Source: Tubiluchus corallicola (lineage: Eukaryota; Priapulida; Priapulimorpha; Priapulimorphida; Tubiluchidae). Taken from it: a DNA stretch of 64,000 nucleotides. Shown one piece after another: positions 30,801 through 59,700 of this stretch. The position numbers and the translations under genes are program-made. The DNA is taken from NCBI GenBank assembly GCA_030141605.1, contig JAQGDQ010000070.1, positions 222,001-286,000 of the forward strand, given 5' to 3'. Within the stretch, counting starts at the first letter, position 1. The number at the start of each line of letters is the position of its first letter. The notes beneath the pieces are model-generated. The model was not told the DNA's origin and ran no database searches. It was given only the letters and a program-made list of their open reading frames with translations.

Positions 30801-33800
30801 ACAAGATCTTCTGCTTTCTGGCTGTCATGTTAACCATTACAGTACAGAAGTACTCGGTACATTTGAGGCTCGGTAATTTTCGTTGTAAGCTAATGGAACC
30901 ACTCAAAGTACATTTGTGGTTATTGGAGGTGTGAGGCAAAGTTTTGCAGTGGGAGTGGGACTGAATTTCAAGTATTAGTAAACGTGATTATACGTTTATT
31001 TTCCCTGTGTTAAAGAAATCACAATAATGAATTACTTTACTGCAAGATGATCAGTTGTGTTTAAACAATTTAATGAAGATCAAATTTGTTATGCACTTTG
31101 TTACTAAAACTGCTTGCAGAGCTTATTATACGACTCTTCCATTTAGCAAGCGTATACAACTTCAGGACAGGAATTTAATAATAAACAGAATGGCTTCGTT
31201 ATCCACGTGATCACGTGATACAAGGTATTACTGGGCTTCAGCGAGAATTTCTGCTGACTCTTTTGTACAGTCAATAACCAGCAAGTCTCTGGAAGAGTTA
31301 TTGTGCTGTCCTCCAGTTCTGAAGTACTTCACATAAATTACACTCTCACTGAAACCGTTTTAATCCATGGCTTCATCACTGGTGTGTGACCTTGGAATGC
31401 ACAAGTGATTGGTCAGTGATTGTTGAATGCTTACAAAAGCTCATCATAATTCCATCCACGGCTGCTGCCAGCATCTCGTTCATCTCTAGGCTCCTAGTTT
31501 CCATTAATGATCAGATGACCTGGACTTGACCATGGTGTTGTTGATAAGAAGCAGGTCTGTTTCTTGATGTTGGGAGTGTAGCAGATAATGTTTTTTCTTA
31601 CAGACTCCGGGTTTTTTTTAGTGCTGGACTATCATCGTCTGACCTATGATTAGGCAAACAAATGAACCGATTATTAAAATGTTACTTTTTGCCATTTCTG
31701 TAATTTGTTTAGTTTTTCGATAGCCTATTTTGACATTTTAGCAAGCTCGTAAATATTGAAATTGCTGCTTTTGCGTAACAATAAATTGCAAACTTGAAAG
31801 AGTGGATCAAGATGTTAAGTAGATTTTGATGACTGACTAAATGTTTCATGTTTCATTGCTTTGCTTAATGGATTTCTGCAATAATCTGGACCAAGTTCCA
31901 ACCAGACTGAAGCCCATTTTTGGGAACAAGTCTTCCCTCTTACTCCAGTAAATTTCAGCAAAAGTCGATTCGGTGTTCTTACTGCGTAGCACAAATAGCC
32001 TCTTCTTAAATGTTCAGGGTTATTTGAAATGCGACTAGTGATGGTAAAAAATGGAGTGACAGCAGATGCAGGATGACCTGAATGGGGCGAGTACTCTGAG
32101 TTTTTTTTAAAGAATGAGTGATAGTAGACGTATAATGCTACACAGTCGAAACTAGTTACTCCTTACGTAAACATTATTAATCCCCCCTACACATGGCTCT
32201 CCTGCAGGAAGGGGTTGAAATCCGTCTGAGCGCTTGGATAATTTCCGAATTAGACGGCTTAGGGATTAGACACAATTCGCCAGTTATGGCTTCTTGTTAC
32301 ATCAGCCGTGGCGGTGAAATTCCTCTTTTCTACTGGCTTCTTCTGCGAACTTGCGTCTTGGCGTCGAATATTGTTCGAACCATGATTCATAATGAAAGCG
32401 TCTGCGGCGAACACTAGGGGTGCTTTGTGACGGCATTAAATGATTTCATATTATGTTGCCAATTCATATTTGGCCGCCTTGTCGGTGTATTGATCGGAAG
32501 GCAGGCATTTGTTAAAACTACCAAATGAACTTGATGAAGATTAGGTGATAAATCATTTTAGCGAATTGTTTTTCTCTCACCTTTTTTGAGTGTGTCTACC
32601 CTCGCATTTGTATGATATCTTTAGTAAAAATTTTCACTATATATATTTGTTGAACATCGTAGCGAACCATACTCTTACGAATGGCGTTCACTGTGGCTAA
32701 GATTACTAACACTGCACTTGAAATTTAGCTAGTTGCCATGTGCTTCTTGTAAATACATCACCTTTAAAAATCATAAAAACGGATTTTATATTTCTTTAAA
32801 TAAAAATTTAAAACTATGGTATCAAACGGTGATGTGTTTGCAAAGAGGGTTGCTGTTATTGCATTTATTTACATTGTTATCTAGAGCTGTATTTATTTAC
32901 ATTTTTTGCATAGGCTCATTTTATTTTACTAGGAAAAACTAAGATGTTAGTTTTATGAAGGTGCCAGTAACTAGCTTTATGTTAAAACAAGAATGACACA
33001 TGTTTTTGTGACAGGATTTAAGTCTCTCAAAATTGACGCTAGCCATTTGTGTTGTTCTGATTATCAGCAGCTAACATTTCATTAGCGTTCAGTACTGTTC
33101 AAGCTAGTGCTGTGAGCACTGAGCAATACAGTTCAATGGACGAAACACAAAGTAATCACCATTAGTCACCCATCCAGTTATTAACCTGATCTGCACGAGT
33201 AATCTTGGTGACATTTTAGCATATGTTTTACTTTTGTCAGGTTTTACCGTGGTGCTGCCGTGTACGGGGTTGGTCAGTGCAGAAGTCGAGGTGAACATTC
33301 AGCTGAACGTTAGCATGTTCAGTGCTTCAAACATCACTGTCTTGAACTTCAAGAGACGAAAGTTTTGCTTGGAAGACAGCATAGTCCATGGTGCTGACAC
33401 GAGCATCATCAATGGCTATGGGGATAACATTCACAGTGCTGATCCGAACAATCTCATTAACAGATATAGAGGTAAGGGTATCTTGGTGCTGACACTGGTG
33501 TCCCATTAGTTGAGGTATAGACAGACTGCAATGCTGGTATTATTGTTGTCGATAGACAGACGAAGACAAGCAATTGTTTCTTGTTCTCTGTCTCCTCTCC
33601 TACCTCCTCCTTCCTTCTTTTCTCTTTCTCTCTCTGTCTCTCTCTCTCTCTCTCTTGCTTTCTCTCTCATTCTGACACTCTCTGTTTGTCTCTTTCTCAC
33701 ACACTCTGTCTCTTTTTCTCTCTCCCTCTCTCTTTTATGCACTCTATCCATATTCTCTATGTGATAGTAGTTATTCTACTCTTTTTTCCTTCCCTTAGTG

Positions 33801-36800
33801 TCTGTCTTCAAAATTATGTCAATTGTTTTTCAGCTTTTTGAATCTAATTAAAAGGTTTGTCGTTTTATTTATCCAATTTATTGTTTAGTTTTGGTTAAAC
33901 AAGTTAATTTCTGGATTTAGCATTCATTTTTGTTTACGCTTTTATTTACTAGTACCATACAACCTCCGACTACCAAGAAGAAAATGCATAAATTATTTAA
34001 TCTGCTCATTATGCAAGCACATTTACAACTTAAGCCATTAACACGTTAACTTAGAAACCATCATTTTCCTCCAGCACTTTAATTTGCAATTAATTAATTG
34101 ATTGCTCAAGAGCCGGATTACTGATTTTAATTTTTACGGTCGCGGCTCGTTACAATAAATTGTGGTTAATCATTGTCGTGTTGTTATTTGCATTATGGTG
34201 ATGAGCACCTAATGATGGCGTGCAGTAATGACAGCAGCAAAAACTGACAAAAAAATGAATTTAGCGTTTTCTGTTGAGTGGATCTAGGGTTTTCAGCGTA
34301 AATTCAACATGTAAAGAGTTTAAACTGTAAAATTTGTAGTTTATATATTATAAAATGATGATTTTTGTGTCTGTTCTTTCTGTCATCTCTGAACTTGGTA
34401 TGGTAATATGCTGGTATTAGGCAGGTGTTAAAGATGCTTGTAATGGTAAATTGCAGTTATTCGCTTTTGAAATGAATACACGTGGAACTTTATTGTTTGT
34501 AATGTCTCTGTTGCGTAGACAGTTTGGGTCTTTACTTTAAAATTTTAACTCATTTAAAAAAATATTTTCACTAGTGTCTCAAACCGCCATTATTTATACT
34601 TTCATTTTACTTGCATTTTCTTACGGTTTTCCCTATTAAATTTCCTAATAATAATCAATTTAACAAATTAAAGCCATCAGTTGGCACAAACTAAACAACA
34701 ATTGTTTTCATACTAGTAGTTCTGCAAGGTTTTTGAAAAAGAAGTATGACCATTAATAAACTTTTAACCCAAGTTTTAGCTCGATAACTTGCAGCTGTTC
34801 GATTATCTCATACCCTTTTTTCAGATCTGACAGCGGCAGCCAAAGATGCAGTCATCACCCGATCCAACAACACCAACGTGCTTTACATTGCCATTGGTTG
34901 CGCGTGTGCCCTTATCTTTGTCATTGGCGTTATTGTCACCATTTATTACATCCGGTCACGCAAGCATAATGATCGACTTAGGTGAGAAAAATTTATTATT
35001 AGTGGCCACTGAAAAAATCTACATAAATTCTTACAACTGTCTTTTCTTATTGCTGAAACAGATCTAGCGTTATTATTCAGCTCTAGGGATGGCTTGAATT
35101 TTTTTTTGTTTTTGATTTTGGTTTGACTGATTTTTAATGTACTAAGTAAATTGTGTTAAAATGTAGGGAGTCTTACTGTTCAATCCGCAAATTTTACGGA
35201 ATGGGGGAGGGGGTAATTTAATTTCTAGACAACAAACAGAATGTTTCTACTAAACGCCAGTGTATTTAGTTCGAAATATAATTTTTTTGGGTAGACGATA
35301 TGAATTACTGACCAGTGAATTGTTTGCAGTTTGCAAAAACTAACAATAACAATAAGAATAAACAGTACACAGTTTATTTCACAGACACAAAACTACATAA
35401 GTACAATAAACAATTCGTGCATCAACAAGTAAACACATCTGTAAAAACACAGGGTTCTTTTTAGGTTGATAAAAAGAAAATAATTTATAACAAACAGAAA
35501 TACAAGTTGTATATCACAGTGCAGATTGAAGCATACATTACATCTTAGCAAATTAATTCAAACCTCTTATTTAGAATCAGATGTAGCTGAAATTTTTTGA
35601 ATTTAGTAATTAGCAATTTCTTAACTTCCGTACATCTTGTTTCATTTAAAATGTAAATTGATCGATAGCACATGTGGATGGGAATTCTGGGGAAAATATC
35701 TGACATTTGGCTTAAGAATGCAGTCCTTTCTTGATAATAAACACTGTATTGCATACTGAAATGAAAGTCTTCTTAGCTAATCGTGTTTATTTAGCTTCTT
35801 CATTTTAGATAACTAGTCCTGAACTAAGCAGTTAGCCTTTTCCAAAGAAGTGAAAAAAGTAGAATTAGCGTAAGTCATTGTGCTAAACTCAGTTTATATA
35901 AATGTTACAGATCCAGTAAAAAAGAGTTTGCACAGTCACTTTTCATTTGTATGTAACTCATGCAGCTTATGTCTTTAAAAGTACTTTATTTCATGTAACA
36001 TGAAGTGGCACAAAGTAATTACCCCTTTGCTTTTGTTTATTATATAATTAAATTTTTTTGCCATAATCATTATTGTTATGTTCATTGTTTGTTGTCATGG
36101 TTATATTCGTTTCAGTGAGGTGAGCAGTAGTCATGGTTACAGTAATCATCATCCCCCATTTGGGCGGACGGAGCCATCGAGTGCTCTGCAGACTCCGAGT
36201 ATGAATGCAAGCTATATACGGTTCTCTCCAGTTAGTGATCTAAAGCCTGTAGATCTGCGCACGCAGATAACTGAGATCGCCATAGACAGAAGTCGACTAA
36301 CATTAGCTGAAGTTTTACAAGAAGGTATAGTAGTCGTATATGAGTGTATTTTGTTAACTGTAATAAAGCTAGAATTGTAATTGATCACCTGAGTATCGAA
36401 CATATTTGAGTTCAATGCAAACAAGCTTTTTTAATTCGAATTTGATCTGAACCTAAAATCAAAGATTCGTATAATTTAGTACTTCAGGTACTTAAGTTCC
36501 TTATCATTAAAACGTCTGAAATTTCATGCAATCAGCACAATTTAGCTGTGACTTCTGTGCACAATTTTGAACAAATTATTAGGGTTTTTGCTACAGAACA
36601 GAATGAAATAGTGTGCATGATCTTTGTGCACATGAAAATTGATAGAAAATCTGTGGGTTTGACTTCGATTTGAATTCGAAATCTTAAAATTCGGTTTGAT
36701 TCGAGTTCATAAGTCACAAATTAGATTCGACACGAATTGGTTTACTGGTAGAGAATACCTAATATTCATCTCTTACATTTTATTTTCACTTCTGCATGCT

Positions 36801-39800
36801 TTGTGAATTGACTATGTTTTTATTCGAGTTCATAAGTGACAAATTAGATTCGACACGAATTAGTTTACTGGTAGAGAATACCCAATATTCATCTCTTACA
36901 TTTTATTTTCACTTCTGCATGCTTTGTGAATTAACTGTGTTTTTCATTGTAAACTGACCAGTATTGTAAAGTTTAAAAAAAACTTGCTTTGTTTCATGCG
37001 ATTCTAATAGAGCATCTGTTATATATTTTGTGCATTTCTTGGTCTTTTCTTATCTATTGGTCCTAAGACGATAACCTAGTTAAGGCAATCTTGTGTAAAA
37101 TTATATGTAAATACATTTGCACCCAACTTTGTCATAAATGTATATTTTACTTAGGTACTTTTGGCAAGATATATCATGGCATCTTACTCGGCGATGGCTC
37201 TGATATGGAAATCGAAAACGATGTTTTTGTTAAAACTGTCACAGGTAAAGTTTTCTATTATTTGTTTGTTTTCCTAATCAGAACTTAATTAAAATGAGAT
37301 AAAATTTCTCATTTTGTGTAATGGTCTGCTGTTTCCAAGAAATACAGTTGTTCTTGAAATTGCTCTCATTTAATGTTTGTTTGTTGCATGTGGCTCCATC
37401 TGCAGAAGAAAAACTTAACAATGATGAAATTTCTGATAATAATGTTTCAACGTTACCTGGGCTGCTTCAGTTTTTTTCAGTTTAGGAATTGTTTTGTCGT
37501 TATATTTTAAAAATAACTGTATCCATTGTTACTCAGCCACCAGTAATGATTCATGGTGTAATTGCACTCCATGCATAAATACAAAAAATATGAACTGTAT
37601 CAACTTCTGTTGGTCACCAATCCTATAGGATGTCTTTGATTATCGTACTGTATTGTATTTGCTGTATTGAGTTTACACATGAAGAATCACAGAAGAAAAT
37701 TGTCAAAAGGCATGTTTTTATTTAACGAGTCATATTTCGTTAATTTATTTAGTCTCCAAGGCTTAATGTCTTCCGTAAGGACAGCAAATTTCAAAGCCAG
37801 TTAACATGCGTTATAAACATATTTAGCATCTGTTTCCTTTTTTACTTTTTCTACGTCAAATAATCGAGAATGTCAAAACAATGGCAATACCAGCACTGGG
37901 GTGAAAACACATCCCTATTAGCTGTAATAATTGATATTATAATCAGAATAAGTGACTCAATGGAGATCAAATGACATCTACCTATATTAGGCAGATACCT
38001 ATTTTAACAAGTTATTGCAGGTTTCGTGGCAAAATGTTAGACACTTGGGGTGTTTTTGCACCCATTTCTGGTGACCAACAGTTAATTACAAAGGGCAAAA
38101 TAAACAATAAATTTGTTATTAATTTGTGAAATCATGCTGTCGTTACGTTAATTTATTCAGAAAGATCATTTGTGCTGTTAGTGCCATCTAGTGAAGAGCG
38201 TTTGTGCTGCTAGTGCCATCTAGTAGTAATTAAAAGTACTTTCTTATTTTTAGAACAAGCTTCAGAAGCTCAAGTTAATCTATTTGTCACCGAAAGCTGC
38301 ATGATGCTGGGCCTGTTGCACAACAACGTGCAAACTATCACCGCCATCTGCAGTGAATCGGAGAAAACGCCCATGGCAGTCTTTCCATACGCATCGCACG
38401 GAAACTTGAAAAAGTTTTTACAGAAGTGCAAAGTGCCCTCTAGTGACGGCACGAGTAATCAGGTAGTCAGACCTATGTATGCTGATGGCTATGCTGAGGG
38501 TGCCCATGTGAGTATGCGCAGCTGCTGGGGTGACTTGCAGTGATGGGAAATCGTTTTTTTGGAGAATTGATTAACTAGAATTCTTACTTTTCGAAGATCG
38601 ATGCTGACTTGATCTTTAAGCATCCATTATATAAACACATTATGCAAAATTTATTTAGACCCGGTTTAGCAATGCAGTGTTTTAGCGACCATCTTCTTAG
38701 AGAAGTTTTGAAGCAGTAGAGCTATTGATTATTGGTATTTTCATCTTTTCTCATGACATAAATTACAACTTCACATCCTGATTAATTTTTTTGCGGAAAA
38801 TTAAGCTTTTCTTCTTCTTAAAACTTTGCCTGAATCCAAAAATGTCAGCATTGCAGACTTTCATTTTGTATAACACTATACCACACAATGAATATCCATA
38901 GTGAAGTTTTCAGTCAGTCAAGTTTCCGCACGTGTTACACGTGCCTGCTCAAAGATGGAGCTAATGTGAAGAATGATTATACCACTTGTTCCATGAAATT
39001 CCTAAAACATCGAGAATGTACTTTTTAATGACTGGGCACGTGTTAGCTGAATGTTTCTAGACAATGTTAGAACAAAATTTTTTTTAAATTAATTGATTTT
39101 TTAACTATGCCCTCGATTATCAAAATCTAGAGGTTCAAGCATCGATTTCTCACCACTAATAGCTTGCATGTTTTGCATTTAACTAACCTTCCAGTTTCTG
39201 AACTAATCTTAGCTCAATTACCTCTGCACTGATGCTAAGCTTCAAAAAGTTAATTATGTTTATCTCAAACATTCTTCCCAAAACGTTTTTATTTTATTCA
39301 GGGAAAATGATGAGAAAGAGTTGTTTATACACACAGTAATATGAACTGTACAAAATGTGTTTTGCCTTTACCACCTTTTTAGAAAACCACAGCTGGAAGG
39401 ATTTATAAGTTTCAAATAGTAACATAGAGTCGCTTAGAAATTTCATTAGATGTTGCTGCCATCTACTGGCCAGGTGAAGATTTTTTCAATCAGTAAATAC
39501 ACTGCACGTGCATTTCTGATTATACAAGCAATGTTTGAGACTCAATTAATGTTTAGGATGAAATTGTTTAAAATTCAGTTTGGAAAAGGAGACTAAATGT
39601 TGATCTTGTGCAATAACGTTGTTTGAACAGTCTGTGGAGCTACTGTTTGCAAATGTAAAGGTATTTTTAGAATTAATAAACCACATCAAGACAGATTTAA
39701 AATTGAATTAGGTAGGTGCCACCTGGTATGGCTAACACTGTTGTGCATTGTTCCTACACTTTATTACATTATTCTGAAAACTTTCCTCTCTTTCTTTTTA

Positions 39801-41539
39801 TTTGCTTGCTTGATTTATTTGCTGAATAAAATAAGTGTGTATACTAATAACATAGGAAAATATTAACATAGGAAAATATTCCTCTGTAAAGACTAAATTG
39901 GCCAGTTTAACTGTATAGTTTTTTTACAGAATAAGTTATCAACTCAAGAGCTCGTGCACATGGCAACAGAGATTATACGAGGGGTGCAGTATCTACATAA
40001 AAAGAAAATAATTCATAAAGATTTGGCCACTAGAAACTGCATGTAAGTTCCACCGGAGTTATTTTACGATAGGGTTTGTGGTTTGTGATTATATATATAT
40101 AATAGCTCAGTGAATATGATAAATATAATAGAAAATTAGTTTTTCTGCACTTGTATTAATGGTCGAAGCTTTTAGTTGTTCTCCTTACTTGTGCGATCAT
40201 TGGCACTGTTTGAGAGCGATCTGTATTAAAGAAAGTCATAGGTTTTTATGGTTTGTTGTCACTAATCTGCTTAAATTTTTCTTGTTCACTAAGTTGAAGT
40301 TCCTAACAATGGTTGCTGAACATTATAAAAAGTCAAAACTTTCTATTGGTAAAAGCATTTTCTGTGTTACGGCAACTACACGACAAACACACATTTAAAT
40401 TTACTGTTAGTGATATTCCACTTGTACTGCTACTTTAACTTTTCTAAAAATCATTTCTGTTGCAGAGTGGATCATAATCTACATGTTAAAGTCACAGATA
40501 AAGCTTTAGCCAGGGACCTGTTTCCAAATGATTATCATTGTTTAGGAGACAATGAGAATCGACCAGTGAAATGGCTAGCCATTGAGAGTTTGATAGACAA
40601 GAGATTTTCTCCTGCCAGTGATGTGGTATGAAACCTTGACATTTTTTACACTTCATTTTGAGTCTGGGTGCAACAGTTTTGAGAGAGAGGGATCAAACTA
40701 ATTTATAATTTATCACTTTGAGTAGCTGCTAAAATGCAGATTAAAACTGACTGAGACATTTGCAATACTTTATTTCTGCATCAGAATCAGCCAAATGTAA
40801 GAACAAGACAAACATGAGAATAATGATGTTTTATAACTGGTTTTATTGTTTAGTTCATTATGTACACTGACGTTATTATCTGATTGGTAGTTATTGACAA
40901 GACTGTTTTTGTTTGCAGTGGTCATTCGGTGTGTTGTTATGGGAAATGATGACCCTCGGACAGCAGCCATACCCGGACATCGATCCGTTTGAGATGGCCA
41001 GTTATCTCAGGGAGGGGTACCGTCTGTCTCAGCCGATAAACTGTCCCGACGAACTGTAAGTAGTTCAAATGCGGGGTGCTGTTCTTCAAATCTTTTAATT
41101 GCAAGGCTAAAATCAGTAATGTAATTAAGCAACACAGTTGGTAATTTATGGCACTGTATGCTTGTACGAATCAAAGTGGAATTATATGGTGCAAGATGTT
41201 GGTAACATAAAATTACATTTCTTATCATATTCTTTTTTTTGTTTTTGAACTAACTATCTATGTAACTGTATTCTTGATAACCAGCTGTATATATCTGTTC
41301 TCAACTAAAATGTATTTGTTGCACAGTGGAAAAACTCCGATCAGTAATATTACTGTATGTCACTAATAACTCACTTTTGCATTTGTGTATTAGTATAAAT
41401 AAATGAGAAAATTACTTATTTTTTCAGTTTTGCTGTGATGGCCTGCTGTTGGGCACTCTGTCCAGATGACCGACCAAAGTTCTCACAGTTGCATCAGTGC
41501 TTACAAGACTTTTACGCCCATTTGGGACGTTTTATATGA
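27700..41539 (+). CDS. RYK: RYK/Derailed-like Wnt receptor (atypical receptor tyrosine kinase), 5' end missing
   Basis: Eleven exons (27700-27833, 28249-28348, 33241-33471, 34825-34981, 36116-36324, 37155-37244, 38254-38462, 39930-40042, 40466-40625, 40919-41055, 41428-41539) join in one frame: 549 codons plus TGA. All have AG acceptors and GT donors. Internal intron phases are 0,1,1,2,1,1,0,2,0,2. The product has an extracellular WIF domain, one transmembrane helix, a juxtamembrane region and a C-terminal kinase-like domain, the order of vertebrate RYK and fly Derailed. Family knowledge: RYK binds Wnt ligands at the plasma membrane and acts in axon guidance and planar polarity, and its kinase is regarded as inactive or nearly so. 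Diagnostic strings are [63 protein letters not shown] and [11 protein letters not shown]. The first residue completed is split by the upstream intron (phase 1), so at least one upstream exon with the signal peptide is missing. Confidence 0.96.
28249..28348 (+). CDS. RYK: RYK exon b: WIF domain, central part
   Basis: The acceptor is TGCTTCAG and the donor GTAAAC. The exon encodes [11 protein letters not shown], then [15 protein letters not shown], corresponding to the human stretch around FQVDN...VNISVQGEVPRT. It starts in phase 0 and ends in phase 1. It has no long open frame of its own and was found by following the frame from the neighbouring exons. Confidence 0.88.
28612..28709. repeat. 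(GT)n microsatellite with GCGT/CG interruptions
   Basis: A TG dinucleotide run with TATG interruptions passes into GCGTGCGTGCGCGCGCG. It lies inside a RYK intron. Confidence 0.95.
30781..30854 (-). repeat. tRNA-like element (SINE head or tRNA pseudogene)
   Basis: On the minus strand the sequence reads TGTAATGGTTAACATG (A-box-like) and GTGTTCGAGTCCC (B box), ending CGGAGCA. Acceptor pairing is only partial. Family and tail are not resolved. It lies inside a RYK intron, antisense to the gene. Confidence 0.45.
33241..33471 (+). CDS. RYK: RYK exon c: C-terminal half of WIF domain
   Basis: The exon follows CTTTTGTCAG and ends at GTAAGG. It encodes [20 protein letters not shown], then [20 protein letters not shown] with a following Cys, then a linker. 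The Cys in LPCTG and the Cys after KRRKF match the conserved WIF-domain pair in RYK. The basic KRRK is the family's proposed tetrabasic processing site. NVS and NIT are potential N-glycosylation sites. The preceding intron (28349-33240) is the longest within the identified gene. Confidence 0.95.
33605..33740. repeat. CT-rich microsatellite
   Basis: Dominated by (TC)n with T and A interruptions, inside the RYK intron between exons c and d. Reading frames on both strands here are low-complexity. Confidence 0.9.
33741..34824 (+). other. Rest of RYK intron c-d
   Basis: AT-rich intronic DNA with a polypyrimidine stretch before the exon d acceptor. No other feature was seen. Confidence 0.6.
34825..34981 (+). 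CDS. RYK: RYK exon d: juxtamembrane and transmembrane segment
   Basis: The exon follows CCTTTTTTCAG and ends at GTGAGA in phase 2. It encodes a short extracellular stalk with an NNT sequon, then a hydrophobic helix [20 protein letters not shown] running to TIYYI, then basic IRSRKH as the stop-transfer signal. It corresponds to the RYK single-pass helix. Confidence 0.94.
34982..36115 (+). other. RYK intron d-e
   Basis: AT-rich intronic DNA. No repeat or RNA gene was recognised. Confidence 0.6.
36116..36324 (+). CDS. RYK: RYK exon e: cytoplasmic juxtamembrane region, start of kinase-like domain
   Basis: The exon follows TTCGTTTCAG and ends at GTATAG in phase 1. It is Ser/His/Pro-rich ([12 protein letters not shown]), then has [17 protein letters not shown] and [16 protein letters not shown]. 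The last part aligns with human AISRERITLKDVLQEG and leads into the glycine-rich loop. The Ser-rich stretch is the counterpart of the variable RYK juxtamembrane region. Confidence 0.94.
36700..36945. repeat. Tandem duplication, period 123 bp, inside RYK intron e-f
   Basis: Two near-identical copies start TTCGAGTTCATAAGT at 36700 and 36823 and run to GTGAATT(G/A)ACT(A/G)TG. Only a few substitutions separate them, so the duplication is recent. Confidence 0.92.
37155..37244 (+). CDS. RYK: RYK exon f: glycine loop and beta3 lysine
   Basis: A 90-base exon between TTTTACTTAG and GTAAAG, phases 1 and 1. It encodes [12 protein letters not shown] and NDVFVKTVT. The loop reads QEGTFG: the first glycine of the usual GxGxxG is Gln, as in other RYK proteins. 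The lysine of VFVKTV is the VAIK-equivalent. Confidence 0.95.
37245..38253 (+). other. RYK intron f-g
   Basis: AT-rich. Near its end TAGTGCCATCTAGT is repeated (about 38179-38192 and 38211-38224) within a 33-34 base direct repeat. Nothing else was seen. Confidence 0.6.
38254..38462 (+). CDS. RYK: RYK exon g: kinase N-lobe, with alternative 3' end at 38507
   Basis: The acceptor is ATTTTTAG. The exon encodes [35 protein letters not shown] and [20 protein letters not shown]. This is the alpha-C to hinge region (human DQASEIQV...LTESCKLRGL). Two in-frame donors exist: CAG|GTAGTC at 38462/38463 and CAT|GTGAGT at 38507/38508, 45 bases apart, both phase 0. The proximal one gives a loop length close to human RYK. 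The distal one is the better consensus donor and adds 15 residues ([15 protein letters not shown]). Confidence 0.9.
38508..39929 (+). other. RYK intron g-h
   Basis: AT-rich intronic DNA. ACATAGGAAAATATT is directly repeated at about 39851-39881. No further exon was found. Confidence 0.6.
39930..40042 (+). CDS. RYK: RYK exon h: catalytic-loop exon
   Basis: The exon follows TTTTTTTACAG and ends at GTAAGT in phase 2. It encodes [43 protein letters not shown] replaces the canonical HRDLAARN; the HKD variant is normal for RYK. Confidence 0.95.
40466..40625 (+). CDS. RYK: RYK exon i: degenerate DFG and activation segment
   Basis: The acceptor is TCTGTTGCAG and the donor GTATGA. The exon encodes [52 protein letters not shown]. 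The canonical DFG is DKA here (DNA in human RYK). [18 protein letters not shown] is nearly invariant in the family. The missing Phe-Gly supports a pseudokinase. Confidence 0.96.
40919..41055 (+). CDS. RYK: RYK exon j: kinase C-lobe
   Basis: The exon follows TTTGTTTGCAG and ends at GTAAGT in phase 2. It encodes [40 protein letters not shown] and NCPDE. It is very close to human WAFGVTLWELMTLGQTPYVD...INCPDE. It is also slightly GC-richer than the surrounding introns. Confidence 0.96.
41428..41539 (+). CDS. RYK: RYK terminal coding exon
   Basis: The exon follows TATTTTTTCAG. It encodes [36 protein letters not shown] and TGA. It aligns to human [20 protein letters not shown]...AALGAYV. The protein ends in a short hydrophobic tail (GRFI), comparable in position to the human AYV tail proposed to bind PDZ domains, but it is not a class I PDZ ligand. 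Confidence 0.96.
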
Positions 41540-47225: not shown

Positions 47226-48640
47226 CTTACCAGTCACGTGCTTGTCTTGCCATGTGATATCCATTCCTGTCTTGTCTGCTGAATGACGACTGACCAACCC
47301 GTTCCTGTCTTGTCCTGTCCTGTTTTGTTCTGTTCTGTCCTGTACTACCCTGTCCTGCCCTGTCCTGTTCTGTCGTGTCCTGTTCTGTCCTGACCACTCC
47401 TGTTCTGTTATGTTCTGACCTGTCCTGTCCTGTCCAGCCCTGTCCTGTCATATCCTGTCCTGTTTTGTCCTGTGTTGGTTTGTGCCACCTTAATGCATTG
47501 TTGATCTATACTGCTTGGTGTCTGATCTGGTTCAATCTTATCTTGTCTTGTTCTATCCTTTCCTTTCCTGTCCTATCCTTTTTTGCCACGTGCTGTCTAC
47601 TCATGACTGTTTTGCTCTATAACATCTGAGTCTCTAGTTTTGTCCTGTCAGAAAAGGGTTTTGTCGCTTCTCTTGTTCTGTTGTCTCTTGCCTTGTTTTG
47701 ATCTCTCCCGTCCTGTCCCATCCAGGCCTGCTGTGCCTTGTTTTATGTTGTCTGTTATGTCCAGACTTGTTGTGCCCTATCCCGTTCACTCCTTTCTACT
47801 TCATCCTGTCACGTCCTGTCCTATCATGTTATATCTTGTATATATGTTTTGCCCTGTCCTGTAAAATCAAGCTGTCCAGACCAGTCCGTGTCTTGTCTGC
47901 CAAGTGGCCTGTCTTGTGCTGTGCTGCCTTTCCCTATCTTGCCCAGTTCTGTTCTGCCTTGTATAGTCCAGCTTATGCCTTTCCTGCGTAGCCTATCCCG
48001 TGCTGTCCCAGTCTATCCTGCTCAAGTTTGTTGTGCCTGCTTTACACTGATCTATCCTGCACCATCCTTTTGCTCTGCATTGTCTGACTGCTTTAAAACT
48101 AAGCTGTTTTGGCCAAATGCCAAATCTAAAATTAACTTGCCGCGTGCCCTGTCCTGCCTGTCTTGTCCTACTGTATGCAATCCTGTCCTTTTCTGGCCTA
48201 TCTGGCTTATCCTATCCTGTCCTGTCCTATCCCGCCCTGCCCTGCACTGCCCTTCTCCGTCCCATTCTATTATACTGAGACCAACCTTGCCTTGTACCTG
48301 CCCCTTTGCTGTTCCGTCTTTTCATATCCTTCCTATCCTATCCTGCTTATCCCATTGTATGATATCCTCCTTCAGTCCTGTCATGGGCACCCATTCCTAC
48401 TCCATCCTGTCATGTCTTGCCTGGCCCTTTTCTCTGCTCTGTCTTGTCCAGCTCTGTCTTATCCTGTCGTATTTCATCCTGCATCACCCACTCCTGTTCT
48501 TTACTGGCAATTGTCACATCCTCCCCTGGTTTTACTCTTATTCTACCTGTCCAGTCCAACCTGTCCTGGCCAGCCCAGTCTTTTCTACCCACATAGACCA
48601 TCCTGTTAATTCCAGTCTTGTCCTGCATTGTCTTGTCATG
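47226..48640. repeat. Degenerate TCCTG-type pentanucleotide array (1.4 kb)
   Basis: Words such as CCTGTCCTGTCCTGTT, TCTTGTCC and CCTATCCTG dominate, with the best tandem stretches at 47300-47470 and 48215-48240. The composition removes stop codons in some frames and gives a 316-codon plus-strand frame rich in Cys, Leu, Ser and Pro. The decay of the pentamer, not selection, explains this frame. Confidence 0.9.
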
Positions 48641-48749
48641 CCCCATCCTACTCATATAACAAATATTTTTGATCATTTGGGAATTTGAAAATACATCTCA
48701 TACTGCACAATTCATTATTCTTTAAATTAATTTTTAAAACTTAAATCAC

Positions 48750-49877: not shown

Positions 49878-50439
49878 CATCAGGTTTTCTTAAGGCAATA
49901 TTAATTAGCAAGACTGATCAGATTTAATAAATTTAGTTTTGATAAAATTACTTATCATGTTATATTCATCATTACCATGTCAAGGACCATTTATTGTTAC
50001 ACCACACTGTGTCATGATTATCACACATTTAGATTGTTACTCGTTTACTGACTGTCACTTTTCATGTCAAAATCGAGTTTTTACCAAGCTGTACCCGATG
50101 CTGTTAATCTCAAATGCACAAGCTTATGTGAAAGTCATACCTTCAATTAGGCAACGTGGACAGAAAGAACACTGATGACCTTACACAAGAAAACATTCTC
50201 AGTGTCATAAGATTTCAAGACAAAAGGCACCGATACAGTTGAAAGAGCACCTGCAAAAACCCAAACAACCAGCACTTATGAAGCAATGAAACTTGCCATG
50301 TCTGCTGGAAGATCTTACCGTAATATCATGGAATCATGACCATCTTTCATGACGCCATGATTAGGTTGTCACACATCATTTAGTCAAGTTGTAATTAGAT
50401 AGAATGATAGATATAATAATTTTCACAAAATTTCTGTGT
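49878..50439 (+). repeat. Degenerate partial unit at the left edge of the 1.6 kb array
   Basis: Contains the unit-end words (GGTTTTCTTAAGGCAAT and AGCAAGACTG) and a block C tail reading NAQAYVKVIPSIRQRGQ before stop codons. It is more diverged than the internal units. Confidence 0.7.
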
Positions 50440-51972
50440 CAGCCATCATGTTTTTATTAGGGCAATTAGTTAGCAAGATTGTTGTGATTTTATAAATAAA
50501 GTTTTATCTGATTCATGCATCATCATATCATGGTAGTGACACCACGTCGTGCCATGGTTAGATTGTTACGCACCACTTAGTGAAGTTGTACTAATTATAT
50601 AATTAGATCGTATTACATAGTTGGTCTTAATTAAGTTACTTGTCATATCATGGGTACAGCACAGGTTTTCCTTCTTGAATTACCTGCGAACTATGCAGCT
50701 GAGGCACCCCTTTCCCTCTGTAGCCTCAGGAGAGTGGCACAGAAGATTTTGGTGGACTGAGCTAATGAGCTAGTGGTTTTCTAGAAGATCTCCACTAGAA
50801 CAGTTTGACAAAACATTTATGCAGTACGAAGGAGCCTTGCAATGGCTCATAGGGCGAACTGCAACATATTTTTCAGACTTTGGTGCCTTCCTGAAGCAGC
50901 CATAAAGGCACGTTCTAACTATTGGTGAGTGCTATTTTTTATTAGGTGACACCAACTTGTAGATCGTATTACATAGTTGGTCTTAATTAAGTTACTTGTC
51001 ATATCGCAGGCACGGCACATGTTTTTCTTCTTGAATTACCTGTGAACTGAAGAACTGAGGTGCCCCTTTGCTATGCAGCCTCAGAAAGATAGCTCTTCAG
51101 TGCTTTCTGTGCTTTCTTGTTCCTGGATGGCAATACATAAAAAAGTAGATTTTGGTGGACTGAACCAGTGGACTTGCAGAATACCTGTACAGCATACAAA
51201 AAAAAGTCTTGCAGTGGCAATTTTGGTAAACTGAAACATATTCTTCAGACCTTGTCCACCTGCTGGAGCAGCCATAAAGGTACGGTCTGATATTTGGTGA
51301 GTGCTATTCTGTGATATCTAAGAGTTTGCCAATGTTTTTAACTAGTGAAATGTATTAGTTATCTCTAATATATTTAGTATTAATTGAATTACTCTTCATA
51401 CCACATGTGTAGCATGGGTGCAATAGAGAAGATGAGCTACCCCTGTCCTTCTGCAGCTCCTATCACAGGAGATTTTGGGAGTCAGACCATAAAACTCTTC
51501 CAATCAGACTAAGGAGCAGTACCAAGACGCATTCTGAGGCTCATTAAAAGACGTTTTGCAGTTTTATGTAGTGGCATTTATAGTGAGTTGAAAGCTGTTC
51601 TTCAGATTCTGCCCACTTTCTCCAGCAGCCCAATGAACATTTTTATTGCGATCTACATGCCATTGGAATCTGGTGTTTATCTGACAAAAGAGCTACTGCG
51701 ACCGTGTACTAGATGTTGCATGTTAATATCAAAATGCACAAGCTTCTGTGAAAGTCATACCTGAAATTAGGCAACATGGACAGCAACACTGATGAATTTA
51801 GACAAGTATCCTCTGTGCCATAACATAAATTTATAATGCAGCAGAATTTTTCAAAAGTAAATGAAGAGATATGCAGGTCAAATGGCAGTGATGCAAACAG
51901 TGTTAGGAAAACTCAAACCACCAACCCTCGTGAAACAATATACGTACTAATCTTCATTGGGGTTTCTGACAT
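50440..51972 (+). repeat. Array unit 1
   Basis: The shortest full unit. Block A (about 50660-50930) is the most rearranged in the array. Block B lies at about 51030-51285 and block C at about 51410-51800. The leader lacks the ATTTATCGTT word present in other units. Confidence 0.85.
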
Positions 51973-53604
51973 CAGCCATCAGGGTTTTATTAAGGCAATT
52001 AGTTAGCAAGATTGTTGTGGTTTATGAATAAAGTTTTATTTGAATCATGCATCATCATATCATGGTAGTGACCATTTATCGTTACACCACGTCGTGCCAT
52101 GATTAGATTGTTACGCACCACTTAGTGAAGTTGTACTAATTATATAATTAGATCGTATTACATAGTTGGTCTTAATTAAGTTACTTGTCATATCATGGGT
52201 ACAGCACAGGTTTTTCTTCTTGAATTACCTGTGAACAGGGGAGTTGAGGTGCCCCCTTCCCTCTGTAGCCTCAGGAGAGTGGCTCTTCCATGCTTTCTTC
52301 TTCCCGGATGATGATTCTTTTGCCATAGTAGACTTCAGTACACGGAACTAGAGGTTTTTCTAAAGACTTCCACTGGGACAATGGGACAACTCATTTATGC
52401 AGTCTGAAGGAACCTTGTAGCGGCACTCAGGGTGAACTCCAACATATTTTTCAGACTTTGGTGTCCGGCTGCAGCAGCCCTAAAGGTACGTTCTAAATAT
52501 TGGTGAGTGCTATTTTTTATTATGTGACATCAACTTGTTTTCTAAAGTCATTAATTAGTGAAAGCCAGCAATTATCGCTAATACATTTAGTCTTAATTAT
52601 GAAGCATTTGTCATATCATAGGCACAGCACATGTTTTTCTTCTTGAATTACCTGTGAACAGGAAACTGAGGTGCCCCCTTCGCTATGTAGCCTCAGAAGA
52701 ACGGCTCTTCAGTGCTTTCTTGTTCCTGGATGGCAATACACAAAAAAGAGTAAACTTTGGTGGACTGAACCAGTGGTCTTGCAGAATACCTGTACAGCAT
52801 ACAAAGAAGTCTAGCAGTGGCAATTTTGGTAAACTGAAACATATTCTTCAGACCTTGTCCACCTGCTGGAGCAGACATAAAGGTACGGTCTGATATTTGG
52901 TGAGTGCTATTCTGTGAAATCAAATTGTTTGCCAACGTCTTTAATTAGTGAAAGGTATTAGTTATCTCTAATATATTTAGTATTAATTGAATTACTCTTC
53001 ATACCACATGTGTAGCATGTGTGCTTCTTCTGGAATTATCTGTGAATAGAGAAGATGAGCTACCCCTGTCCTTCTGCAGCTCCTATCACAGGAGATTTTG
53101 GGAGTCAGACCATGTGCCGTACCAGAAAACTCTTCCGATCAGACTAAGGAGCAGTACCAAGATGCATTCTGAGGCACATTGAAAGACTTTTTGCAGTTTT
53201 ATGTAGTGGCATTTATAGTGAGTTGAAAGCTGTTCTTCAGATTCTGCCCACTTTCCCCAGCAGCCCAATGACCATTTTTATTGCGATCTACATGCCATTG
53301 GAATCTGGTGTTAATCAGACAAAAGAGCTACTGCGACCGTGTACTAGATGTTGCATGTTAATATCAAAATGCACAAGCTTCTGTGAAAGTCATACCTGCA
53401 ATTAGGCAACATGGACAGCAACACTGATGAATTTAGATAAGCATCCTCTGTGTCATAACAAATTTATAATGCACCAGAATTTTTCAAAAGTAAATGAAGA
53501 GATATGCAGGTCAAATGGCAGTGATTCAAACAGTGTTAGGAAAACTCAAACCACTAACACTCGTGAAACATATACGTACTAATCTTCATTGGGGTTTCTG
53601 ACAT
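51973..53604 (+). repeat. Array unit 2
   Basis: Blocks at about A 52240-52485, B 52662-52881, C 53050-53424. Block B here is open over 79 codons (52654-52893), ending in KHILQTLSTCWSRHKG before GTACGG. Confidence 0.9.
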
Positions 53605-55223
53605 CAGCCATCAGGGTTTTATTAAAGCAAATAGCAAGATTGTTGTGGTTTATGAATAAAGTTTTATTTGAATCATGCATCATCATATCATGGTAGTGAC
53701 CATTTATCGTTACACCACGTCGTGCCATGATTAGATTGTTACACACCACTTAATGAAGTTGTACTAATTATATAATTAGATCGTATTACATAGTTGGTCT
53801 TAATTAAGTTACTTGTCATATCATGGGTACAGCACAGGTTATTCTTCTTGAATTACCTGTGAACAGGGGAGTTGAGGTGCCCCCTTCCCTCTGTAGCCTC
53901 AGGAGAGTGGCTCTTCCATGCTTTCTTTTTCCTGGATGATGATTCTTTTGCCATAGTAGACTTCAGTACACTGAACTAGAGGTTTTTCTAAAGACCTCCA
54001 CTAGGACAATGGGACAATTCATTTTTGCAGTCTGAAGGAACCATGTAGCGGCACTCAGGGTAAACTGCAACATATTTTTCAGACTTTGGTGTCTGGCTGC
54101 AGCAGCCCTAATGGTACGATCTAACTATTGGTGAGTGCTGTTTTTTATTACGTGACATCAACTTGTTTTCTAAAGTCATTAATTAGTGAAAGCCAGCAAT
54201 TATCGCTAATACATTTAGTCTTAATTGTGAAGCATTTGTCATATCATAGGCACAGCACATGTTTTTCTTCTTGAATTACCTGTGAACAGAAGAATTGAGG
54301 TGCCCCCTTTGCTATGCAGCCTCAGAAGGGTAGCTCTTCAGTGCTTTCTGTGCTTTCTTGTTCTTGGATGTCAATACATAAAAAAGTAGATTTTGGTGGA
54401 CTGAACCAGTGGACTTGCAGAATACCTGTACAGCATACAAAAAAGTCTTGCAGTGGCAATTTTGGTAAACTGAAACATATTCTTCAGACCTTGTCCACCT
54501 GCTGGAGCAGACATAAAGGTAGGGTCTGATATTTGGTGAGTGCTCTTCTGTGATATCTAAGAGTTTGCCAATGTCTTTAATTAGTGAAAGGTATTAGTTA
54601 TCTCTAATATATTCAGTATTAATTGAATTACTCTTCATACCACATGTGTAGCATGTGTGCAATAGAGAAGATGAGCTACCTCTGTCCTTCTGCAGCTCCT
54701 ATCACAGGAGATTTTGGGAGTCAGACCATGTGCCGTACCAGAAAACTCTTCTGATCAGACTAAGGAGCAGTACCAAGATGCATTCTGAGGCACATTAAAA
54801 GACTTTTTGCAGTTTTATGTAGTGGCATTTATAGTGAGTTGAAAGCTGTTCTTCAGATTCTGCCCACTTTCTCCGGCAGCCCAATGACCATTTTTATTGC
54901 GATCTACATGCCATTGGAATCTGGTGTTAATCTAACAAAAGAGCTACTGTGACCGTGTACTAGATGTTGCATGTTAATATCAAAATGCACAAGCTTCTGT
55001 GAAAGTCATACCTGAAATTAGGCAACGCAGACAGCAACACTGATGAATTTAGACAAGTATCCTCTGTGCCATAACATAAATTTATAATGCACCAGAATTT
55101 TTCAAAAGTAAATGAAGAGATATGCAGGTCAAATGGCAGTGATGCAAACAGTGTTAGGAAAACTCAAACCACCAAGACTCGTGAAACAATATACGTACTA
55201 ATCTTCATTGGGGTTTCTGACAT
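53605..55223 (+). repeat. Array unit 3
   Basis: Blocks at about A 53865-54112, B 54290-54520, C 54665-55035. Block B (54314-54529) is open and ends in the same WSRHKG before a GTAGGG instead of GTACGG. Confidence 0.9.
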
Positions 55224-56909
55224 CAGCCATCAGGGTTTTTATTAAGGCAAAATTGTTAGCAAGATTGTTGTGCTTTATGAATAAAATTTTATTTGAATCA
55301 TGCATCATCATGTTATGGTAGTGACCATTTATCGTTACACCACGTCGTGCCATGATTAGATTGTTACGCACCACTTAGTGAAGTTGTACTAATTATATAA
55401 TTAGATCGTATTACATAGTTGCTCTTAATCAAGTTACTTGTCATATCATGGGTACAGCACAGGTTTTCCTTCTTGAATTACCTGTGAACAGGGGAGTTGA
55501 GGTGCCCCCTTCCCTCTGTAGCCTCAGGAGAGTGGCTCTTCCATGCTTTCTTTTTCCTGGATGATGATTCTTTTGCCATAGTAGACTTCAGTGCACTGAA
55601 CTAAAGGTTTTTCTAAAGACCTCCACTAGGACAATGGGAAAACTCATTTATGCAGTCTGAAGGAACCATGTAGCGGCACTCAGGGTAGACTGCAACATAT
55701 TTTTCAGACTTTGGTGTCCAGCTGCAGCAGCCCTAAAGGTACGTTCTAACTATTGGTGAGTGCTATTTTTTATTATGTGACATCAACTTGTTTTCTAAAG
55801 TCATTAATTAGTGAAAGCCAGCAATTATCGCTAATACATTTAGTCTTAATTATGAAGCATTTGTCATATCATAGGCACAGCACATGTTTTACTTCTTGAA
55901 TTACCTGTGAACAGGAAACTGAGGTGCCCCTTCGCTATGTAGCCTCAGAAGAACGGCTTTTCAGTGCTTTCTTGTTCCTGGATGGCAATACACAAAAAAG
56001 AGTAGATTTTGGTGGACTGAACCAGTGGACTTGCAGCAAAACCTGTACAGCATACAAGGAAGTCTTGCAGTGGCAGTTTTGGTAAACTGAAACATATTCT
56101 TCAGACCTTGACCACCTGATGGAGCAGACATAAAAGTATGGTCTGATATTTGGTGAGTGCTATTCTGTGATATCAAATTGTTTGCCAACGTCTTTAATTA
56201 GTGAAAGGTATTAGTTATCTCTAATATATTTAGTATTAATTGAATTACTCTTCATACCACATGTGTAGCATGGGTGCTTCTTCTGGAATTATCTGTGAAT
56301 AGAGAAGATGAGCTACCCCTCTCCTTCTGTAGCTTAGCAGAGCAGCCCTTTAGTCCTTTTAGTTTTTTTTGTTTCCAGATGATGACACCTATATCACAGG
56401 AGATTTGAGAAGTCGGGCCATGTGCTGTAGCAGAAAACTCGTCCAATCAGACTAAGGAGCAAGCACCAAGATGCATTATGAGGCTCATTAAAGACTTTTT
56501 GCGGTTTTATCTAGTTTCATTTATTGTGAGTTGAAAGCTGTTCTTCAAATTCTGCCTACCTTTTTCAGCAGCCCAATGACTATTTTTCTTGTAATCTACT
56601 TTCCACTGAAATCCGCTGTTAATCTGACAAAAGAGCTACTGCAACCATGTACTAGATTCTGCATGTTGATACCAAATGCACAAGCTTCTGCGAAAGACAT
56701 ATCGGAAATTAAGCGACATGGACAGCAACAACAATGATGAAGACGAGCATTCTCTGTGCCATAACTTAAATTGATGATGCAGCAGAATTCTTCAAAACTA
56801 AAGAGATATCCAGGTCAAGTGGCAGTGATGCAAACAGTGTTAGGAAAACTCAACCCGTCAACACTCGTGAAACAATATACGTACTAATCTTCATTGGGGT
56901 TTCTGACTT
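55224..56909 (+). repeat. Array unit 4
   Basis: Blocks at about A 55490-55738, B 55915-56133, C 56303-56737. Block C keeps a longer form with TTTCCAGATGATGACACC that units 1-3 have lost by an internal deletion. Confidence 0.9.
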
Positions 56910-57176
56910 CAGCCATCAATGTTTTATTAAGGCAATTAGTTAGCAAGATTGTTGTGGTTTTATGAATAAAGTTTTATTTGAATCATGCATCATCATATCA
57001 TGGTAGTGACCATTTATCGTTACACCACGTCGTGCCATGATTAGATTGTAACGCACCACTTAGTGTAGTTGTACTAATTGTATAATCAGATCGTATTGCA
57101 TAGTTGGTCTTAATTAAGTTACTTGTCATATCATGGGTACAGCACAGGTTTTTCTTCTTGAATTACCTGTGAACAG

Positions 57177-57423
57177 GGGAGTTGAGGTGCCCCCTTCCCT
57201 CTGTAGCCTCAGGAGAGTGGCTCTTCCATGCTTTCTTTTTCCTGGATGATGATTCTTTTGCCATAGTAGACTTCAGTGCACTGAACTAAAGGTTTTTCTA
57301 AAGACCTCCACTAGGACAATGGGAAAACTCATTTATGCAGTCTGAAGGAACCATGTAGCGGCACTCAGGGTAGACTGCAACATATTTTTCAGACTTTGGT
57401 GTCCAGCTGCAGCAGCCCTAAAG
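57177..57423 (+). pseudogene. Exon-like block A of unit 5
   Basis: The block follows TTTTTCTTCTTGAATTACC TGTGAACAG and ends AAAG|GTACGT. One frame gives EVPPSLCSLRRVALPCFLF. The +1 frame continues DDDSFAIVDFSALN and then meets stops. Near the end it reads RLQHIFQTLVSSCSSPKG. The two frames and internal stops indicate a decayed coding exon. It is homologous to blocks B and C. Confidence 0.5.
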
Positions 57424-57599
57424 GTACGTTCTAACTATTGGTGAGTGCTATTTTTTATTATGTGACATCAACTTGTTTTCTAAAGTCATTAATTAGTGAA
57501 AGCCAGCAATTATCGCTAATACATTTAGTCTTAATTATGAAGCATTTGTCATATCATAGGCACAGCACATGGTTTTCTTCTTGAATTACCTGTGAACAG

Positions 57600-57821
57600 G
57601 AAACTGAGGTGCCCCTTCGCTATGTAGCCTCAGAAGAACGGCTCTTCAGTGCTTTCTTGTTCCCTGGATGGCAATACACAGAAAAGAGCAGATTTTGGTG
57701 GACTGAACCAGTGGTCTTGCAGAAAAACCTGTACAGCATACAAAGAAGTCTTGCAGTGGCAATTTTGGTAAACTGAAACATATTCTTCAGACCTTGACCA
57801 CCTGATGGAGCAGACATAAAG
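57600..57821 (+). pseudogene. Exon-like block B of unit 5
   Basis: The block follows CTTGAATTACCTGTGAACAG and ends AAAG|GTACGG. In units 2 and 3 it can be read across (FGGLNQW, CRIPVQHTKK, KLKHILQTLSTCWSRHKG). In unit 5 and in unit 4 small length changes disrupt the frame. Similar in position and sequence to A (GxLxHIxQTL). Confidence 0.5.
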
Positions 57822-57988
57822 GTACGGTCTGATATTTGGTGAGTGCTATTCTGTGATATCAAATTGTTTGCCAACGTCTTTAATTAGTGAAAGGTATTAG
57901 TTATCTCTAATATTTTTAGTATTAATTGAATTACTTTTCATACCACATGTGTAGCATGGGTGTTTCTTCTGGAATTATCTGTGAATAG

Positions 57989-58424
57989 AGAAGATGAGCT
58001 ACCCCTCTCCTTCTGTAGCTCAGCAGAGCAGCCCTTTAGTCCTTTTAGTTTTTTTTGGTTTCCAGATGATGACACCTATATCACAGGAGATTTGATAAGT
58101 CGGGCCATGTGCTGTAGCAGAAAACTCTTCCAATCAGACTAAGAAGCAAGCACCGAGATGCATTATTAGGCTCATTAAAGACTTTTTGCAGTTTTATTTA
58201 GAGGCATTTATTATGAGTTGAAAGCTGTTCTTCAAATTCTGCCTACCTTTTTCAACAGCCCAATGACTATCTTTCTTGTAATCTACTTTCCACTGAAATC
58301 CGCTGTTAATCTGACAAAAGAGCTACTGCAGCCATGTATTAGACTCTGCATGTTGATACCAAATGCACAAGCTTCTGCGAAAGTCATATCGGAAATTAAG
58401 CGACATGGACAGCCACAACAATGA
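57989..58424 (+). pseudogene. Terminal exon-like block C of unit 5
   Basis: The block follows GGAATTATCTGTGAATAG. The first part reads DELPLSFCSSAEQPFSPFSF then DDDTYITGDLISRAMCCSRK and stops. The second part (58218-58424) reads ELKAVLQILPTF, LTKELLQPCIRLCMLIPNAQ, ASAKVISEIKRHGQ, ending in two stop codons. ELKAVLQILPTF corresponds to KLKHILQTLSTC of block B. There is no donor at the matching place, so C would be a last exon. Confidence 0.5.
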
Positions 58425-58711
58425 TGAACTTTGACGAGCATTCTCTGTGCCATAACTTAAATTGATGATGCAGCAGACATCTTCAAAACAAAAGAGATAT
58501 CCAGGTCAAATGGCAGTGATGCAAACAGTGTTAGGAAAACTCAACCTGTCAACACTCGTGAAACAATATAATCTGGCATGTCTTCTGGAAGATTTTCCAT
58601 AAACACACACCAACAACCCACAAACACAACCACAAAAAAATAGACGTTTTCTGACATCAGCCATCAGGATTTTATTAAGGCAATTATTTAGCAAGATTGT
58701 TGTGGTTTATG

Positions 58712-58717
58712 AATAAA
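58712..58717 (+). promoter_or_regulatory. AATAAA following block C (repeated in each unit)
   Basis: ATGAATAAAGTTTTATTTGA lies about 290 bases after the block C stop. It recurs in each unit (for example about 52027, 53656, 56965). It would suit a polyadenylation signal for a three-exon 3' gene end. Confidence 0.35.
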
Positions 58718-59212
58718 GTTTTATTTGAATCATGCATCATCATCATATCATGGTAGTGACCATTTATCGTAACACCACGTCGTGCCATGATTAGATTGTT
58801 ACGCACCACTTACTGAAGTTGTACTAATTATATAATTAGATCGTATTACACAGTTGGTCTTAATTAAGTTACTTGTCATATCATGGGTACAGCACAGGTT
58901 TTTCTTCTTGAATTACCTGTGAACAGGGGAGTTGAGGTGCCACCTTCCCTCTGTAGCCTCAGGAGAGTGGTTCTTCCATGCTTTCTTCTTCCTGGATGAT
59001 GATTCTTTTGCCATAGTACACTGAATTAGAGGTTTTTCTAAAGACCTCCACTAGGACAATGGGACAACTCATTTATGCGGTCAGAAGAAATCTTGTAGCG
59101 GCACTCAGGGTGAACTGTAACATATTTTTCAGACTTTAGTCTCCGACTGCAGCAGCCCTAGGTACGTTCTAAATATTGGTGAGTGCTATTTTTTATTCCT
59201 TGACATCAACTT

Positions 59213-59700
59213 GACAATAAAAGAACATGACCTAAGGAAAGCCTTTGAGCAGGATGGAATTCCATCTCTCGTCTTTAAAATGTACAAATCTGAACTGTCT
59301 TCTGCACTGGCTAAGCTGCTCAGCGCCAGCGTTGCTATTTTATGTTTTCCGTTTTCCTGGAACATTGGTGTCAGTTACCCCTGCTTTAATAAGGTAATCC
59401 TGAGAATTCTGATCCATCAATTTGCGGCACTACTAGGGTACTGCCAATCATCAGTAAAATCTTTGAAGCCATACTAAATAAGCATTTATTATGTTTCCGA
59501 GACAATAACAACAATCTTCTTGCTCATGTCCAGTATCCACTGCTGACGCGCCAGCCTTACACACATGGATTCTAAATCGTTAATAGAGCCTCAAAGTGTC
59601 AAGATAAGGCTAGAGAAAACTGTCAAGACTAGCCCTTCAAGACTTGACGAAGTCTGTCACAAAGGCCTACTCCACAAACTGCATGTGTGGCAATACGTTG
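59213..59700 (+). mobile_element. Non-LTR retrotransposon fragment: N-terminal part of reverse transcriptase
   Basis: The frame at 59211-59477 has DGIPSLVFKMYKSELSSALA, then a SW-like motif and PCFNKV. A shifted frame continues RVLPIISKIFEAILNKHLL, a strong match to the Jockey/CR1-type RT motif (PISLLPxxSKxxEKxxxxxL), and NNNLLAHVQYP. Another part reads RLDEVCHKGLLHKLH, equivalent to AFDKVWHxGLLxKL. Frameshifts and stops show it is dead. It begins abruptly at the break of the last array unit. Confidence 0.75.

Follow-up and report, generated by a model that had tools for sequence, protein, structure and literature searches.

A probable composite satellite-type tandem repeat with exon-like cores and a recurrent 57-bp box in Tubiluchus corallicola

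The window analyzed here is a 64,000-nucleotide stretch of contig JAQGDQ010000070.1 (C1525) of the priapulid Tubiluchus corallicola, whose assembly comprises 343.5 Mb in 2,344 contigs. Pfam searches, one scan of which took in 27 of 45 window frames open for 90 aa or more, placed a WIF domain (33156-33506) and tyrosine-kinase pieces (38214-38540 and 40353-40628) on the plus strand, the domain set of Ryk receptors, and we take this gene to be Ryk-like. Downstream of these gene pieces (33156-40628) and on the same strand lies a tandem array, delimited by self-BLAST, box matches, and periods (Table 1). Two other repetitive tracts were noted in the window: a 31-bp tandem repeat at 24139-25461 (43 copies with 94% matches; an alternative period of 92 bp gives 97%) and, by eye, a degenerate TCCTG-rich tract at 47303-48700, inside which a 328-aa open frame matched Pfam at chance level only (E 3.4). 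At its right edge, at 59213, the array adjoins what we judged by eye to be a decayed LINE reverse-transcriptase fragment (59214-59500); the open frame at 59121-59474 had no Pfam match. No Rfam match at gathering score was obtained in the window or at 12 other loci searched for structured RNA.

Self-BLAST resolved the array into five full S-A-B-C units and a sixth, partial S-A unit, where S denotes the stretch around an AATAAA and a 57-bp box. The periods, measured from AATAAA to AATAAA, are 1532, 1628, 1625, 1685, and 1747. An earlier note on this DNA had described a recent tandem array with three related blocks per unit, and this description holds: the block types (A, n = 6; B, n = 5; C, n = 5) are ∼72-88% identical to one another over pieces, and same-type copies are mostly 93-98% identical. 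The exceptions are A1 (82-84% to the other A blocks), B1 (89-92%), S1 (86-89%), and C1-3 against C4-5 (86-89%). The core of the array lies where the note had put it, but the left limit had been set too far to the right, with a C-tail piece at 50099-50189 and diverged box remnants at 50322 and 49973. Kinship among units is a mosaic, the closest pairs being A4/A5 (98.0%), B2/B5 (97.8%), C1/C3 (96.5%), and C4/C5 (96.2%). The array displays what is expected of a higher-order repeat of the satellite type: long units of related sub-monomers arranged head to tail, with exchange between units.

Table 1. Positions of the array and its parts in the window
Feature	Position	Strand	Remarks
Whole array	49973..59213	+	Includes older, diverged left remnants
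57-bp box (S core), unit 2	52059..52115	+	
Other box copies (starts)	∼50527 (shortened), 53687, 55312, 56997, 58747	+	
Block A, copy A2	52198..52485	+	Exon A of the earlier note
Other A blocks	A1 50653-50907, A3 53826-54113, A4 55451-55738, A5 57136-57423, A6 58886-59161	+	
A-B spacer ("intron")	52486..52620	+	3′ part matches repeat linkers on 3 of 4 contigs tested
Block B, copy B2	52621..52882	+	Sole block open throughout
Other B blocks	B1 51009-51279, B3 54249-54518, B4 55874-56135, B5 57559-57821	+	
B-C spacer ("intron")	52883..53004	+	Linker matches on C596, C1934, C1744, C1525 444.9 kb
Block C with tail, copy C2	53005..53574	+	
Other C blocks	C1 51402-51942, C3 54641-55193, C4 56258-56879, C5 57944-58570	+	
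AATAAA after C2	53655..53660	+	
Other AATAAA sites	50495, 52027, 55280, 56965, 58712	+	

The blocks had been read as exons, with A and B bounded by an (A/T)AG acceptor and a GTACG(T/G) donor. We located the A and B blocks through GTGAGTGCT; a separate count of block starts likewise gave six A and five B, so no block was missed for want of this sequence. The proposed donor is exact in seven of the 11 blocks but deviates in four (GCACGT in A1, GTACGA in A3, GTAGGG in B3, and GTATGG in B4), and all 11 contain GGTGAGTG, a better donor 17 bp 3′ of it. The GT at the proposed site is nevertheless kept in 10/11 blocks, which we count against a satellite reading. As for the acceptor, four of five B blocks have TAG and B1 has CAG, whereas none of the six A blocks has AG at this position, which reads ATCATGGG; a better acceptor, judged by eye, is a polypyrimidine-YAG within the proposed exons, as in CCCCTTCCCTCTGTAG/CC. 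All five C blocks are followed by AATAAA, as had been stated. A derivation of this signal from linker sequence was considered but not supported, as the AATAAA region compared with repeat linkers gave p values of 0.10-0.70, which also counts against a satellite reading.

Three readings of the locus were weighed besides the one that we prefer. The one that survives best, although we consider it unlikely, is that of the earlier note: the 3′ end of a lineage-specific gene, in which one exon was duplicated twice before the whole was amplified, with some copies still working. Related blocks bearing GT and YAG signals fit this reading, as does a peptide motif kept near the same place in A, B, and C. 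The exact form proposed, (K/R/E)LKxxLQTL, is restricted to B (KLKHILQTL, 5/5), because A has (E/K/R)LQHIFQTL (5/6, with A6 interrupted by a stop) and C has ELKAVLQIL (5/5). Some blocks are open, as had been noted: B2 from the proposed start through the donor, alone among the blocks, and B3 from the YAG onward. Against this, none of the six A blocks has a frame open along its full length, so in no unit are A, B, and C all open.

Divergence within the array, compared with A1 and B1 left aside, mostly shows exons evolving no more slowly than their surroundings. Exon divergence was 4.8% for A2-A6 (5.8% from the YAG) against 4.6% upstream and 5.2% after the donor; 5.5-5.9% for B2-B5 against 1.3% in the spacer; 10.3% for C1-C5 against 5.7% in the spacer and 8.8% in the tail; and 6.7% for C4-C5 against 2.2% in the spacer. 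The order was reversed for C1-C3 (exon 3.1%, spacer 6.6%), which favors the gene-end reading and counts against a satellite origin, and is the only comparison in which exons were slower; neither the open frames nor the purifying selection of a functional multi-exon gene was otherwise found.

Codon tests were applied to distant blocks (A, B, C, and copies on contig C1820 at 275-278 kb and 698 kb), with seven hand-aligned representatives per segment (nine when segment 2 was first run) chosen among the C1820 copies and the 16 blocks of the window; segment 1 omits A1 and the 275-kb C copy. In the DDDTFAIVD frame of segment 1, pN/pS was 0.52, column shuffles averaging 0.79, with a p value of 0.033 that is uncorrected and thus weak with three frames to choose from. 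For segment 2 the expected frame gave 0.70 (p = 0.35), higher than one of the alternative frames (0.61, p = 0.17). Counted by codon position, the differences among distant blocks were not significantly uneven in either segment (21/20/31, p = 0.21, and 21/12/18, p = 0.29). The neutrality that the dN/dS check of the earlier note would have taken as refuting is thus largely what we see, apart from the faint signal in segment 1. A faint trace of old coding may persist between distant blocks, and a single old protein-coding exon is the probable source of the A, B, and C cores. As ancestry, a triplicated gene end is therefore weakly indicated; as present function it is not supported, since B2 alone is open throughout and the exons are mostly not slower, and the locus is not clearly a working gene today.

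Genome searches for an intact parent point the same way. The B2 product matched at least 26 places, 23 in the array and two at 275-278 kb of C1820, the remaining one appearing to be chance (E 0.09, carrying a stop). A C-block DNA query matched at least 10 places (six in the array, four on C1820, one of these at E 0.49), and a composite 66-aa query, built partly from a C1820 copy, at least 18 (15 in the array, three on C1820). Relatives of the exon blocks therefore occupy at least three loci, and among the matches listed C1820 is the sole other contig, each match beyond the window at the protein level is interrupted by a stop, and neither the B2-product nor the composite-peptide search returned the intact parent copy for which the earlier note had suggested looking. 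The match on C1985 was judged to be chance, as no block profile matched there at E 1. The C1820 copy has no AATAAA at the corresponding site, which reads CTAAATTAAG. By eye, two pieces of the 698-kb copy on C1820 are separated by the gag-like part of a BEL/Pao-type element (L022 5600-8000, minus strand). The protein searches proposed for the B and C blocks assigned no family: Pfam had no match for the B2 product, only chance-like matches for the C piece (best E 0.054), and none for three further queries, and a PDB search gave nothing better than E 0.38.

Every array unit carries the 57-bp box. Its 22-base heart occurs, with up to two mismatches, at 120 places in the genome including the window array (57 exact), and the reversed control at none. 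Forty-nine of the 57 exact places lie on seven contigs (C67, C77, C379, C1545, C1797, C1934, and C2115), which we assign to one satellite family, with units of ∼730-800 bp, because the central portion of the unit on C1934 recurs on them, at 84-100% identity and at least 41 places. In C67, C77, C379, and C1545, no more than ∼0.3 kb separates the last box from the end of the contig. The end arrays of C1545 (L016) and C379 (L017) score identically, and a single locus may have been assembled as both. The thousands of dispersed copies that would have marked an ordinary satellite or transposon for the earlier note were thus not seen, either for the box heart or for the exon blocks. Since the exon-bearing blocks, with at least three loci, do not show a high copy number, we call the locus satellite-like instead of assigning it to an abundant satellite; the rarity of these blocks is unlike a typical satellite and counts against that origin.

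The box was 81.5% identical between copies, against 42.7% and 50.3% for its flanks and 34.7% for shuffles (45 pairs), in a comparison of 10 hand-picked copies out of 127, all retrieved through the box itself. The aligner understates flank identity in this comparison, since part of the flank values are lower than those of the shuffles. Comparison inside arrays reveals no clear slowing of the box relative to its flanks. Its divergence was 3.5% in the window array (flanks 4.7% and 4.3%), hardly slower; the C1934 array gave mixed results, 1.6% (flanks 3.7% and 0.5%) and 0.7% (flanks 0.7% and 2.0%). Locus L018 leans toward a slower box (0.0% and 0.8% against 0.5-14.6%), with few rows and mixed outer flanks. 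This test rests on the window and L012 rows, the groupings for L014, L011, and L016 having mixed repeat types. Both the retrieval of copies by the box and its rate within the array count against a satellite reading.

A hairpin was considered for the box, two sequences of which folded at z scores of -1.75 and -2.36. The arms paired in 94% of cells (21-60% for slid versions) across 32 of 44 distinct box sequences, with little variation and no two-sided change; the gapped copy C596a, left out of this count, has arms ATCACAG and CCGTGAT, by eye one compensatory change. Exact searches for the 22-mer in prokaryote and viral collections returned 0 and 0, and three pieces of the box sequence occurred in no paper among the open full texts searched.

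The spacers also have relatives elsewhere. The 70-bp stretches that precede B and C matched repeat linkers of C596, C1934, and C1744 with z scores of 5.9-9.3 (6/8 tests), and none of eight exon controls exceeded z 0.7. Three observations here count against a satellite reading: the C1525 linker failed for both 70-bp pieces, the region upstream of A matched weakly (p = 0.002-0.10), and the whole A-B spacer matched less well (z 5.2, 3.1, 1.7, and 0.7) than the whole B-C spacer (z 7.7, 10.8, and 8.7, the fourth linker giving 1.4). The 3′ part of the B-C spacer matches C596, C1934, and C1744, and the whole spacer and its donor half match C1525 at 444.9 kb; the donor half matched one of four linkers (z 4.8), and that of the A-B spacer had no clear match among the four (best p = 0.028), results that we also count against a satellite reading. 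Cores start with TCATATCATGG in 6/6 A and 5/6 S, and with TCATATCATAG in 4/5 B. By eye, one C1820 box (L009 7647) comes after C-tail sequence, and one at 698 kb (L022 8285) after exon-like sequence, not linker. On this basis, the switch between sub-monomer types would fall at the left box arm.

We therefore favor, as reasonably likely, a satellite-type higher-order repeat, local and in tandem, into which an old exon was taken and which is now decaying; for all its unusual look, the locus is probably an ordinary composite tandem repeat. For this reading we count the mosaic kinship, the recurrent box, the linker homology, the core start common to S and A, the exons that are mostly not slower, and the failure of the searches to return an intact parent. 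The sub-monomers have linker sequence in common, as seen in the spacers before B and C; one bears the box that recurs in other arrays of the same genome, and the other three bear the A, B, and C cores, which probably go back to one protein-coding exon. That exon may have been captured into the repeat framework at the box or a linker and multiplied to three, after which unequal exchange or conversion would have amplified the unit to five full copies and one partial copy. The repeat would now be decaying without clear coding constraint.

Somewhat less probable than the gene end is that the locus is a candidate remnant of a nonautonomous mobile element, for example one that is Helentron-like, the array being its expanded central tandem repeats. 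The box does occur at scattered sites, singly or in short runs (C596, C1525 at 444.9 kb, C1538, and C1744), and a study of Crassostrea gigas describes Cg_HINE Helentron elements with satellite-like central repeats (PMC7492417), which resemble our case in having such repeats both in short dispersed runs and in arrays. We give least credence to the idea that the box, an imperfect palindrome, is under selection as a site of protein binding or recombination where repeat cores are exchanged, whereby satellites of this lineage pick up and amplify host exons as cassettes, this locus being one.

Under the satellite-type reading, the locus cautions that repeats can imitate amplified genes through signals resembling splice and poly(A) sites. 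The recurrent box and its possible role in exon uptake are the part that deserves a second look: if the box is constrained, it offers a testable case for satellites that switch monomer type and acquire genic DNA.

Gene-derived tandem repeats are known from Stellate/Su(Ste) of Drosophila. Our array likewise consists of degenerate gene pieces in tandem amplification, but, unlike in that system, a functional parent gene was not found among the matches listed. The closest parallel is provided by the satellites of Meloidogyne chitwoodi and M. fallax, which are described as having a conserved Box 1 across divergent monomers, coexisting simple and higher-order arrays, and monomer types that in some cases switch precisely at the box (PMC3694981). 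In our genome, too, a short box is common to divergent repeats (its copies here having been retrieved by the box), simple and higher-order arrays occur together, and monomers appear to change at the box. Box 1 is described there as resembling the CENP-B box (PMC3694981), whereas ours is not CENP-B-like (best match 8/17, equalled by 99.9% of shuffles), and some of the sub-monomers here carry exon-like cores.
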